A stretch of DNA of 64,000 nt from Halosimplex pelagicum. GTDB taxonomy: Archaea; Halobacteriota; Halobacteria; Halobacteriales; Haloarculaceae. This document shows, in pieces, positions 3,627 through 59,134 of this stretch. Position 1 is the stretch's first letter, and the number at the start of each line of letters is the position of its first letter. Below the pieces are notes generated by a model. That model saw only the letters and a list, made by a program, of their open reading frames with translations, searched no databases and was not told the DNA's origin. The DNA lies in the NCBI RefSeq assembly GCF_013415905.1, contig NZ_CP058909.1:1550001-1614000 (forward strand), read 5' to 3'. The position numbers and the translations under genes were made by a program.

Positions 3627-3675
3627 TGACCGATGGGTTGGCCACCCCAGGTCTTCAGGATTCGGATCGGTACGG

Positions 3676-4284
3676 GACCGCGTTCGATTCGATGTGCTCG
3701 TTTATGGGTTGTCTCTGTTGGACGAGTCGTGGAAGGAAGTCGAACGACAGCGACCGCACTCGACGGGTACTGCAGGCGATGAAAGCCCTCGCCGCGCTCG
3801 CTAGCCGGAGTCGCGACCGCAGGGAACGGTGAACGATGAAAGCCATCGCCGCGCTCGCGGTCGCTGAGCGGGATATCCGCGCTCTCGGCACCGCCCGCGC
3901 GGATAGTGGCCCGCTCAGACGACCACGCAAGCGCGAGCGCGCCTCGCCCTTTCAGTCCGCCAGGACCGCAACCACAAACCGCCCCGCACAGCGACCGCAG
4001 ACGGCCACGAGCCTCCCCAGCCGATTCGCTCCGTCACTCCGTTCCCCTCGCTCATCCCTCGCGCGACTGTTTCGAGCGGCCCGCCAGGAGGCGGGCACGC
4101 TCGACAGCACGCGCCAACCGCTACCGCACCACTACCCGCAACCGCAATAGCCGTCACCTGCAGATAGCATCCGGCGCCGCAGGCGCCGGTTCACCGCTCG
4201 CGCCGACGGCGCGAGCGGCCTTTTTCACCCATGTTTTTGCCGGAGGGGTGGGCCCGGTTGCCCACCCCTCCGGGAAAAAGATGG
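3676..4284 (+). repeat. Mosaic structured intergenic repeat, copy A (complete)
   Basis: This fills most of the 780-bp divergent space between aglM and the MoxR gene. In order: a 5' block (about 3676-3717, shared with copy B); two units starting atgaaagcc at 3779 and 3836 (57-bp spacing); a hairpin at 3864-3918 (CTGAGCGGG...CCCGCTCAG with inner ATCCGCG/CGCGGAT); a C/A-rich stretch; a hairpin at 4073-4103 (CGAGCG-CCCGCC-agga-GGCGGG-CGCTCG); and a tail of three stem-loops at 4171-4189, 4194-4218 (followed by ccTTTTT) and 4241-4272 (13-bp perfect stem). Short frames crossing it are not convincing proteins. No terminal inverted repeats or target duplications were recognised. Confidence 0.85.
4194..4225 (+). 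terminator. Intrinsic-terminator-like stem-loop with T-run in repeat A
   Basis: CCGCTCGCGCC-gac-GGCGCGAGCGG forms an 11-bp perfect stem followed by cc and TTTTT (4221-4225). That is the form of a factor-independent terminator on the plus strand. No plus-strand gene lies just upstream; the only sequence that could be read into it is the repeat itself. It may therefore end a transcript of the repeat or insulate the MoxR promoter. The third stem-loop (4241-4272) has its T-run on the 5' side, so it is not a classic terminator. Confidence 0.5.
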
Positions 4285-4408
4285 GGAACAAACGTTACTT
4301 ATCTCCGGCCGTAAGCCATGATACCGAACGTCCCGTGGGACGCCGTCCCACTCCCCGGTCGCCGCCGTCGCCTCCGCGCTCGGCGGCGCGTCGGAGCCGT
4401 AGCCACCA

Positions 4409-9152: not shown

Positions 9153-9287
9153 CCACCCTCGTGGTCCCGTAAGCGCGGACGGATAGCACGTTTTGGCCCG
9201 TCTCTCGGGTCCGGTCGTTCGTTTCTCGCCAGCGGCTCGCTCGTTTCGAGGTATGAGTCGAGCAGTGGTGTCCGGTCGAGCTAGCTT

Positions 9288-9508
9288 GGAAGGGAGTCGA
9301 CCGACGGCGACCGCGCTCGGCGGCATGCGATGAACGCCCTCGACGCGCTCGCGGTCGCTGTCCCCGAAAATTCCGATTTTCGGGATCGGGCGAGAGCCTC
9401 GCTCTCTCGAACCAAGCGGGAGATCCGCGCTCTCGGCACCGCCCGCTCACGGCACGGCCGTTCGCTTCGAGGCGCTGGCGACGAGGAAACCGCGGCGGGA
9501 AAAAGATG
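9288..9508 (+). repeat. Mosaic structured intergenic repeat, copy D (partial)
   Basis: This lies in the 405-bp gap between aSUI1 and hel308. The opening ggaagggagtcgaccgac aligns with 3731 onward in copy A. One atgaacgccctcgacgcg unit (9330) follows, then two extra hairpins: CCCGAAAAT-tccg-ATTTTCGGG (9363-9384) and GAGAGC-ctc-GCTCTC (9392-9406). A shortened block agcgggagatccgcgctctc and a tail remnant ending gcgggaaaaagatgg complete it. The central C/A-rich block and the GCCCGCC hairpin are missing. The remaining 9153-9287 shows no feature I can support. Confidence 0.75.
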
Positions 9509-43419: not shown

Positions 43420-44709
43420 ATGGGGGTTCACAGGGGTCGTGTGCGACGGGTCCTGGCGATGGCGTTGCTGGGCATGATACTCGTCGCGGGCGTCGGGGCG
43501 CTGGGGGCCAAGACCGTGGACGCTCGCGACGGACCTGCGGCGACGCCGGCGGACGAACCGAACGAGCCGTCCCCCCTGGGGAACGGGGACGCGAGCGACG
43601 TGCTCGTCGAGAAGCTCGAACAGCTCGGGGTCCCGTCGACCGGCGATACCGCCAACGGGAGCGACGGGACGAGCGGGTCGAACGCGACCGAGGATAGCGA
43701 TGCCGACCCCGAGACGGGCCCGCCCGCCGTCAGAAACGACACCGCCCGCGTGCTGGACTCCGACGGCGACGGTCTCACCGACGAGCGCGAACGCGAGCTC
43801 GGGACCGAGGTGTTCGACCCCGACACCGACGGCGACGGCCTCGTCGACGGCCGCGAGATCGAGCTCAACACCGACCCGCTGAACCCCGACACCGACGGCG
43901 ACGGCGTCTCGGACGCCAGGGAGCTCCAGCGGGGGACGAGCCCGCGTTCGGTCGACGCCGACGCCGACGGCCTCACCGACGAGCGCGAGCTCGAACTCGG
44001 CACCGACCCGTTCGACCCCGACACCGACGACGACGGCCTCGACGACCGGCGCGAACTCGAACTCGGCACCGACCCCACGGTCGCCGATACGGACGGCGAC
44101 AGGCTCCTCGACGGCTGGGAGTACCGCGGAGAGACGCCGTCGGGCGCCGTCCTCCCCGACAGCGATCCGCTGTCGATGGACCTGTACGTCCAGGTCGACT
44201 ACGCCCGCGGGGTCGAGCCCGACTCGCCCGCGTTCTACGACTACGTCGAATCCGAGTTCGCGGAGATGCCGGTCCGGGGGCGAACGGACGCCGGCATCGA
44301 CGTACACGTCCGTGGGGGCGGCCGCGTCAACGAGACCGCCGTCTTCACCGGCGAGAACTTCGCCGAACTCAGGACCGACCTCTACCGCGACCGACTCGGG
44401 CCGCGCGCCGGCACCTACCACCAGGTCGTCGTGACCGAGTTCGCCTCCGACGAGGTCGGCTACGGCTCGGTCGGCGGTCAGTTCGCACTGGTCGATGCCG
44501 GGGCCGCCGACCGGACCCAGCGCCACGTCGTCGTCCACGAACTGCTCCACAACGTCGTCGGCCGCATCGACTCGCCGGGCGCCTGCCGGAACGACGCCCA
44601 CCACTACTGCGAGGGCGGCTGGCTCACCCCCACGATCACCCCCGGAGAGGGCGAGTACCTCCCCGGCCCGCTCGCCGACGAGATCGAACACCAGGGCTTC
44701 CAGCCCTGA
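43420..44709 (+). CDS. Secreted TSP3-repeat protein with HExxH zinc-metalloprotease motif
   Basis: 429 aa. Signal-like helix (RVLAMALLGMILVAGVGALG, about residues 10-29), a Ser/Thr/Asp linker, then five or so thrombospondin type 3-like calcium repeats at about residues 113-235 (DSDGDGLTDERERELGTEVF, DPDTDGDGLVDGREIELNTD). The C-terminal domain holds HVVVHELLHNVVG (His-Glu-x-x-His at 373-377), a zinc-metalloprotease signature, and a distal Cys/His-rich segment. TSP3 repeats bind Ca2+ and would be stable in brine. It looks like a calcium-dependent extracellular protease. The third zinc ligand is not firmly placed. Confidence 0.78.
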   Translation: MGVHRGRVRRVLAMALLGMILVAGVGALGAKTVDARDGPAATPADEPNEPSPLGNGDASDVLVEKLEQLGVPSTGDTANGSDGTSGSNATEDSDADPETGPPAVRNDTARVLDSDGDGLTDERERELGTEVFDPDTDGDGLVDGREIELNTDPLNPDTDGDGVSDARELQRGTSPRSVDADADGLTDERELELGTDPFDPDTDDDGLDDRRELELGTDPTVADTDGDRLLDGWEYRGETPSGAVLPDSDPLSMDLYVQVDYARGVEPDSPAFYDYVESEFAEMPVRGRTDAGIDVHVRGGGRVNETAVFTGENFAELRTDLYRDRLGPRAGTYHQVVVTEFASDEVGYGSVGGQFALVDAGAADRTQRHVVVHELLHNVVGRIDSPGACRNDAHHYCEGGWLTPTITPGEGEYLPGPLADEIEHQGFQP

Positions 44710-44737
44710 CCTCGGCGACAGTTCCGTCGACCGATCG

Positions 44738-45001
44738 CTACTGCCGCGGCTGCGGTTGCGGCCGCGTCCCCGCGCCCTGTTGGCCCTGCCCCGGCGCCGA
44801 CAGCCCCGCTTGCGGCGTCACCCCCTCCGGCAGCACGTACCAGAGCCGGTCGTGCGGGACGAACCCCACCTGCTGCGGGTCGTTCGTGTCGTAGCGCTCG
44901 CGCTCCTGCTGGTTTTTCGTCCCGTAGAGGACCAGTCCGTACTCGTTGACCTCGTATCTGGCACAGTCGACGACCGTCCCGTCGGTACAGTACACTTGCA
45001 T
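44738..45001 (-). CDS. Small conserved haloarchaeal protein of unknown function
   Basis: 87 aa (MQVYCTDGTVVDCARYEVNE). A beta-rich first 60 residues with two cysteines and PQQVGFVPHDRLWYVLPEGV is followed by a Gln/Pro/Gly-rich tail. The core pattern, a short YC...VVDCARYE and VPHDRLWYVLPEG, recurs in haloarchaea without assigned function. Its 5' end faces the large structured repeat B (45054 onward). Confidence 0.65.
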   Translation of the reverse strand: MQVYCTDGTVVDCARYEVNEYGLVLYGTKNQQERERYDTNDPQQVGFVPHDRLWYVLPEGVTPQAGLSAPGQGQQGAGTRPQPQPRQ

Positions 45002-45053
45002 TGTCTCCCCGTCGCCGATTGGGCCGCGAGCCGGTTGAACCTGCTGTCGGTCC

Positions 45054-45893
45054 CGAGACCGCGTTCGATTCGAGTTGCTCGTTTAGGGGTTGTTTCTGGT
45101 TATCGTATCGTGAAACGAAGTCGTGCGAGAGTGACCGCACTCGACGGCAAGCATTGAAAGCCCTCGCCGCGCTCGCTAGCTTGCTCGACCGCAGTCGACA
45201 GCAGGTGATGAAAGCCCTCGCCGCGCTCGCTAGCTGGTGACTCGACCGCAGTCGACAGCAGGTGATGAAAGCCCTCGCCGCGCTCGCTAGCTTGCTCGAC
45301 CGCAGTCGACAGCAGGTGATGAAAGCCCTCGCCGCGCTCGCTAGCTGGTGACTCGACCGCAGTCGACAGCAGGTGATGAAAGCCCTCGCCGCGCTCGCGG
45401 TCGCTGAGCGGGATATCCGCGCTCTCGGCACCGCCCACGCGGATAGTGCCCGCTCAGGCGACTATCGGCGCGAGCGCGCCTCGCCCTTTCAGTCCACCAG
45501 GCACCGCAACCGCCCCGCACAGCAACCGCAGACGGCCACGAGCCTCCCCAGCCGATTCGCTCGTTCGTTTCACTCACTCCGTCATCCCTCGCGCGACTAT
45601 TTCGAGCGGCCCGCCACGAGGCGGGCACGCTCGACAGCACGCGCCACTGCAACCGCCGACCGCACTGCCACCCGCAACTGCAACAGCCGTCACCTGCAGA
45701 TAGCATCCGGCGCCGGAGGCGCCGGTTCGCCGTCAGAGCGAGCGCTGACGAGCCTGCGGTCGGTCGCGGTGCTCACTCCCGCAGACACCGGCTGCGCGGG
45801 AGCGGAGCGACCAACGCAGCCGGCCTTTTTTCACCCATGTTTTTGGCGGAGGGGTGGGCGCGGTTTGCCCACCCCTCCGAGAAAAAGATGGTT
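45054..45893 (+). repeat. Mosaic structured intergenic repeat, copy B (longest)
   Basis: This occupies nearly all of the 893-bp gap between the 87-aa gene and engB. It contains the 5' block (about 45054-45097, near-identical to 3676-3717); five units starting (a/t)tgaaagccctcgccgcgct; the gagcggg/cccgctc hairpin; the block cgcgcctcgccctttcagtc; the CGAGCG-CCCGCC hairpin (about 45603-45635); and the tail of three stem-loops, the middle one CCGGCTGCG...CGCAGCCGG followed by TTTTTT. Compared with copy A, the tandem part is expanded and the middle tail stem has a different sequence but the same form. No gene is supported in it. Confidence 0.88.
45154..45402 (+). repeat. Alternating 54/57-bp tandem array within repeat B
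   Basis: Units begin at 45154, 45208, 45265, 45319 and 45376, giving intervals 54, 57, 54 and 57. The long units carry gctagctggtgactcgacc, the short ones gctagcttgctcgacc, so the higher-order period is 111 bp repeated twice. All intervals are multiples of three. On the minus strand this gives an unbroken peptide repeat ASERGEGFHHLLSTAVE(SP/Q). There are no spacers, so this is not a CRISPR. Confidence 0.9.
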
Positions 45894-58639: not shown

Positions 58640-59120
58640 GAGCGACAGCTACCGCACTCGACGGCAGGGGATGAAAGCCCTCGACCCGCTCGCTAGGAGT
58701 TGGATCGACCGCACTCGACGGGGACAGCAAGCGATGAAAGCCCTCGACCCGCTCGCTAGCAACTGCATCAACCACAGGGGACAGTAAGCGATGAAAGCCC
58801 TCGCCGCGCTCGCGGTCGCTGTCACCGGAAATCGAAGATTTCCGAGATGACGAGAGAGCTTCGCTCTCTCGAACCAAGCGGGATATCCGCGCTCTCCGCA
58901 CAGCCCGCGCGGATAGCGCCCGCTCAGGCGACCACGCAAGCGCGAGCGCGCCTCGCCCTTTCAGTCCACCAGGACCGCAACCACGACCGCCCCGCACAGC
59001 ACCACAGACGGCCTCACACCTCCCCAACCGATTGTGATGCTCGCAGGCTGCGCTTCTCATCCCTCGCGCGACTGTTTCGAGCGGCCCGCCAGGAGGCGGG
59101 CACGCTCGACAGCACGCGCC
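58640..59120 (+). repeat. Mosaic structured intergenic repeat, copy C
   Basis: This fills most of the 688-bp gap between the membrane protein gene and arcS. It opens with acagctaccgcactcgacgg; three units start atgaaagccctcg at 58671, 58734 and 58791 (intervals 63 and 57). Two extra hairpins, CGGAAATC-gaa-GATTTCCG (58826-58844) and CGAGAGAGC-ttc-GCTCTCTCG (58851-58871), are placed as in copy D. The agcgggatatccgcg hairpin, the C/A-rich block and the CGAGCG-CCCGCC hairpin (about 59079-59109) follow. It stops without the tail, 15 bases before the arcS stop codon. Confidence 0.85.
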
Positions 59121-59134
59121 GACCGCACCGCCGA

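Follow-up and report, generated by a model that had tools for sequence, protein, structure and literature searches.

In the genome of Halosimplex pelagicum (5.2 Mb, one contig), a short tandem array has units that are spaced by multiples of three nucleotides (3n) and a minus-strand reading frame that stays open throughout. Is such an array translated into a repeat peptide, or is it a piece of something non-coding? The array was studied in a window of 64,000 nucleotides (the whole stretch analysed, genome positions 1550001-1614000), to which positions below refer unless the genome is named. What the initial annotation overlooked is a large conserved hairpin element, one arm of which is formed by the array.

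The array and its surroundings

The window holds four copies of the repeat, A to D, and the array under study lies in copy B. Unit-to-unit spacings are 57 bp in A, 54, 57, 54 and 57 bp in B, and 63 and 57 bp in C, so that the 54/57-bp alternation and the 3n spacings originally claimed for A, B and C proved exact when unit starts were rechecked. The window contains the motif ATGAAAGCC nine times, where 0.02 occurrences would be expected; the first unit of copy B is TTGAAAGCC instead. On the plus strand, the five-unit array spans 45154-45402, with units at 45156, 45210, 45267, 45321 and 45378, and is an expansion of a 111-bp dimer (TRF period 111, 96% matches) present as direct copies at 45133-45243 and 45244-45354. 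Because the alternation stems from one duplication of this dimer, the four spacings do not represent four independent events. The minus-strand frame that reads SERGEGFH is open over B as a 112-aa ORF (45100-45438), but another minus-strand frame is likewise open across the array (275 aa, 44604-45431), and parts of the array are also covered by plus-strand ORFs.

The array is preceded by a leader (GTTCGATTCGAGTTG...GTTGTTTCTGGT..., 45063-45155), defined by the extent of homology and common to around 40 other copies; in 33 of 41 copies its motif precedes the first unit by 67 or 73 bp. The last unit opens a closing hairpin (45377-45491), recognised from fold z-scores and covariation, in which TGAAAGCCCTCGCCGCGCTCGC pairs with GCGAGCGCGCCTCGCCCTTTCA; its fold z is -3.4 as minus-strand RNA and -4.6 as plus-strand DNA. 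There follow a conserved core, GCCCTTTCAGTCCRCCAGG (45483-45501), and a 3′ domain (45502-45645) made up of a variable linker, CCTCCCCAGCC..., CCCTCGCGCG, a second hairpin, the stem of which is exchanged from copy to copy, and the end CACGCGCC. All of these features are on the plus strand, as are the other copies in the window. Copy A (3670-4117, leader to 3′ hairpin) has two units (3781, 3838), a hairpin at approximately 3837-3954, the core at 3946-3964 and the 3′ hairpin at 4079-4115. Copy C (58640-59122) has three units (58673, 58736, 58793), a hairpin with an inserted segment, the core at 58955-58973 and the 3′ hairpin at 59084-59120. Copy D (approximately 9270-9500) is truncated to one unit (9332) and a partial hairpin, with the core and 3′ domain lost.

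Two further repeats were seen nearby. A second dispersed module, often found 3′ of the element, lies at 45800-45892 and 4218-4285, with the layout CCTTTTTTCACCCATGTTTTTG ... hairpin GGAGGGGTGGGC/GCCCACCCCTCC ... AAAAAGATGG; in some copies it is flanked on both sides by CTGTACTGA-like sequence, possibly a target duplication. Around 1.1 kb upstream of the B array, at 43756-44113, there is a 66-bp tandem repeat that apparently codes for an acidic repeat of DTDGDGLTDEREL type.

Copies across the genome

Searching the genome for the core with up to 2 mismatches gave 96 copies, 49 on the plus and 47 on the minus strand, where a reversed-pattern control gave none; the copy at genome position 5110693 was left out of the detailed comparison. 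Homology among copies runs from about -110 to +430 around the array and core and then ends, with a few nested or paired copies as exceptions. These boundaries are statistical; the element measures some 300-450 bp including the leader. Most copies carry one unit (38 copies) or two (42), and 13 carry three to six. Copies are mostly intergenic, and the four arrangements of flanking genes, as predicted with a simple ORF score, are represented 27/24/24/20 times, i.e. with no preference. On these even counts, we rejected the idea that the element serves as a terminator or promoter depending on the orientation of genes. Inverted pairs of elements were seen core to core within one intergenic region (L163, L169 and L224), and inverted core pairs 118-122 bp apart were seen in genomes G301 and G386, both resembling higher-order REP clusters.

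The hairpin and a possible RNA

The last unit of each array, TGAAAGCCCTCG-n-CGCTCGC, pairs with GCGAGCG-n-CTCGCCCTTTCA in a single downstream arm that contains the core motif CTCGCCCTTTCAGTCCRCCAGG, around a stem of the form GGTCGCTGAGCGGG-ATATCCGCGC / GCGCGGATAGnGCCCGCTCAGGCGAC. The outer motifs are nearly invariant, with GAAAG/CTTTC enclosing a CCCTCG/CTCGCC loop that is non-complementary and stays fixed, whereas the inner stems differ in sequence between copies yet remain paired. Across 76 copies, 97.1% of cells are paired, compared with 29-50% in slid-structure controls, and changes on both sides of a pair are found at 8 pairs in 38 cells, a level reached in 0 of 500 shuffles. Among 121 copies from outside Halosimplex, 85% of the loop-adjacent stem is paired, a figure that drops to 54% (58% at most) once arms are swapped between copies. 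The variable paired apical part ranges from 66 to more than 230 nt, and one-base indels that shift the reading frame occur within the hairpin.

Such covarying stems on either side of an invariant loop would suit a structured non-coding RNA made from the minus strand of each copy, in which the array units would be duplicates of the 3′ arm. The predicted form is 5'-CCUGGYGGACUGAAAGGGCGAGG-[stems]-CCGAGGGCUUUC-3', with GGGCGAG and CGAGGGC forming a continuous helix through tandem G.A pairs. The minus-strand loop, which reads CGAG/CGAG, a classical tandem G.A context, could stack in this way by G.G and tandem G.A pairing. Wobble asymmetry in the H. pelagicum genome also leans towards the minus strand, with 75 A/C against 37 G/T pairs on the plus strand, but the leaning is reversed over the other genomes (G/T 150, A/C 126); as the data sets contradict each other, strand assignment by this route was rejected. 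The arrangement of genes around copies is not consistent, approximately 100 copies per genome would be unusual for an RNA gene, and no Rfam family matched at its gathering score. We consider an RNA of this kind possible but unlikely. That it would define a new class of archaeal structured RNA, with the invariant GGGCGAG/CGAGGGC loop and covarying stems on the minus strand, as many as about 144 copies in one genome, and a 3′ arm duplicated mostly in 3n steps without coding, is a doubtful proposal that we put forward tentatively.

Multiples of three and coding potential

The original claim that every spacing is a multiple of three holds in the window but fails genome-wide, where 72 of 78 spacings are 3n and the other six measure 53, 55 or 56 bp. 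At other loci the figure is 60 of 67, and among distinct arrays, drawn from eight genera, it is 70 of 80. Spacings range from 39 to 75 bp, and the spacers are largely unrelated between genera. In Halosimplex, part of the pattern seems to come down to a single alternative of 6 bp that unit spacings (57 or 63 bp) and leader distances (67 or 73 bp) have in common. When spacings are grouped by genus and length, there are around 22 3n classes against 11 non-3n, above the expected third, although these classes are not independent. The over-representation of 3n across many genera is real. It is a concrete, testable anomaly.

The prevalence of 3n spacings across eight genera is what a translated peptide of SERGEGFH... 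type would predict, and several further observations point the same way. Of 80 arrays in the H. pelagicum genome, 79 leave the minus-strand frame (f0) open, and 37 of 41 copies have a leader-to-first-unit distance of 1 mod 3. Third codon positions, with 106 changes, are somewhat more changed than the other two (79 each), and this frame has 91 synonymous changes where 70 are expected. Against this, a plus-strand frame has a matching synonymous excess (98 vs 77) although it is laden with stops, present in plus f0 in 35 of 80 arrays of the same genome. The dN/dS-type check put forward for the minus frame gave no clear codon-phase signal, at most a borderline one common to two frames; phase entropy was flat and not significant, and phase tests were null in other genera. 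The frame that is open across B is not open everywhere. Outside the H. pelagicum genome, stops interrupt minus f0 in 16 of 67 arrays, and in genus g68, where it is plus f0 that stays open, they interrupt it in 9 of the 11 distinct spacers. No single frame is open in all arrays, and taken together, frames, stops, phase entropy and synonymous excess did not support coding on either strand. The one-base indels of the hairpin also shift the frame, the distance from last unit to core is mostly 104-110 bp and occurs in all phases, and no conserved start codon was found for an array peptide. Finally, a 50-bp spacing class is established in genome G282, where coordinates give nine 50-bp and two 55-bp spacings among 44. 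Non-3n spacings and frequent stops, both named beforehand as outcomes that refute translation, were therefore found. From the stops, the non-3n classes, the flat phase and the lack of a conserved start, we conclude that the arrays are not translated: the array is most likely no repeat peptide, and minus-strand translation into one is very improbable. The initial annotation had offered duplication at the DNA level, with chance phase, as the other option; the duplication is borne out by unit numbers that differ between syntenic copies, but chance phase alone is insufficient given the 3n excess across genera.

Two side observations concern these frames. The 50-bp spacers of G282 mostly end in AACAAAG before the next GAAAGCCC and form a non-3n subfamily at approximately eight loci. 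In arrays of G162, G282, G138, G243 and G391, a mostly open plus-strand frame reads as KALGAL/KALGPL repeats with T-A-N-rich spacers, and this differs from the frame open in Halosimplex.

The conserved outer boxes and highly variable paired apical part (66 to >230 nt) recall a folded recombination site such as an integron attC, or another tyrosine-recombinase substrate with variable terminal structure. We see little prospect for this reading, as the copies are single and dispersed among ordinary genes, with no cassette-like spacing, and the core motif is presumably unlike R boxes. A CRISPR-like array of repeat and spacer, suggested by about 27 repeated bp next to 30 less conserved bp, can be dismissed with near certainty, since most copies have only one or two units, the unit belongs as one arm to a hairpin element with 96 copies, and spacers within an array are near-copies of one another, those of B falling into two types.

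Distribution and evolution

The core, with no more than 2 mismatches, was found in 132 of 392 haloarchaeal genomes scanned, at 0 to 144 copies each; some of the low counts are due to chance, as a reversed control also gives a few. Core-bearing genera include Halorussus, Halonotius, Haloparvum and Halovenus, and tandem-duplicated 5′ arms are seen again in several of the core-bearing genera. The element is also present on plasmids of Haloarcula, Halorussus, Halovenus and Halobaculum. Collections of viral contigs and phages gave no matches to the element, and a viral origin was rejected accordingly. On two related Haloarcula plasmids (L325 and L328), a copy precedes a gene about 1.15 kb long, which in H. 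marismortui carries the annotation SOSS complex subunit B family (RPA-like).

For six loci, the neighbouring genes were located in other Halosimplex genomes, and most of these sites were read in detail. At the L114 site, three species have the element, four have none, and one has an insertion sequence (IS) with its transposase. At the L091 site, three species have the element, a fourth has a decayed copy, and a fifth has an internal-deletion remnant fused at a shared CCCTCG. Orientation is the same in nearly all syntenic copies, and the fold is kept in most even though apical stems have been replaced. Unit numbers at syntenic copies vary, as 1/3/2, 1/4/3/1 and 2/1/1/3. Copies therefore persist in place, keep their fold and gain or lose units, and some are lost by deletion. 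No target-site duplication was found on comparing empty and filled syntenic sites, where the intergenic DNA is too diverged to place the junction, and neither a transposition event nor a mobilising protein was found for the element. At L287 (G161:C1:3614950-3616040), an IS with its own transposase and ends of TTCAGATAAG type occupies the intergenic site of the repeat, which in other Halosimplex species holds the repeat or nothing.

Overall, we judge at a probability of roughly 0.7 that a non-coding hairpin element, dispersed through intergenic regions of haloarchaea, has the array as its 5′ arm. The hairpin would be the recognised part, either as single-stranded nucleic acid or as a cruciform, and a putative protein recognising it may have spread the element and may maintain it, as for repeats of REPIN or MITE type. 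Array size would change through unequal recombination or slippage. Several points weigh against this reading: neither transposition events nor a target-site duplication or mobilising protein turned up, the boundaries are statistical, the 3n excess in array spacing is not predicted, and the long conservation in situ with compensatory change exceeds the needs of a dead mobile element. Haloarchaeal genomes appear to hold a widespread, structure-conserved repeat. With the frames that they leave open in several directions, its arrays can yield spurious 'hypothetical proteins'. Should the hairpin prove to be an RNA or a protein-bound DNA site at approximately 100 places, it would point to an archaeal RNA-binding, chromosome-organising or mobilising factor.

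Comparison with known repeats

In Rfam and the papers searched, which cover few subscription journals, we found no description of the element, only papers on REPINs and MITEs. Like Rfam-type RNAs, it shows covariation in its secondary structure while the internal loop stays invariant; unlike them, it matches no family and shows opposite wobble leanings in the two data sets. Like a MITE, it is short, non-coding and dispersed, has inverted terminal arms, is patchy between relatives and occurs on plasmids. It differs in that no parent IS or target-site duplication was found (the flanks being diverged), and in that its inner stems compensate at syntenic sites, which is not expected of dead IS derivatives. 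As to terminal inverted repeats, the GAAAG/CTTTC arms pair, but the six positions after them stay fixed and do not complement each other, and homology runs on beyond the arms.

REPINs, or REP doublets, of Pseudomonas and E. coli have conserved outer arms, a variable paired middle and around 100 extragenic copies (PMC3116915). The element resembles them in its approximately 100 extragenic copies per genome, its conserved inverted outer arms, its variable paired middle with compensatory changes, its clusters, and a copy number that varies between genomes; it is, as they are, a high-copy extragenic repeat with inverted conserved ends and a covarying hairpin. It differs in being larger (hairpin 66 to >230 nt, whole element 300+ bp), in having non-identical arms (CCCTCG vs GGCGAG), and in its leader, tandem-duplicated 5′ arms and second 3′ hairpin domain. 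No match to PF01797, the Y1 (RAYT-type) transposase, was found in G162 (59 copies), G232 (53), G165 (29), G310 (65; 88% complete) or G392, and the two PF01797 genes of the H. pelagicum genome have no GAAAGCCCTCG unit within their locus of about 3.3 kb. Dependence on a RAYT as a general rule is refuted by such copy-rich genomes without Y1_Tnp, and we therefore do not file the element as a REPIN. It is REPIN/MITE-type in anatomy, though we do not place it among them, and this is the closest known kind of extragenic hairpin repeat.
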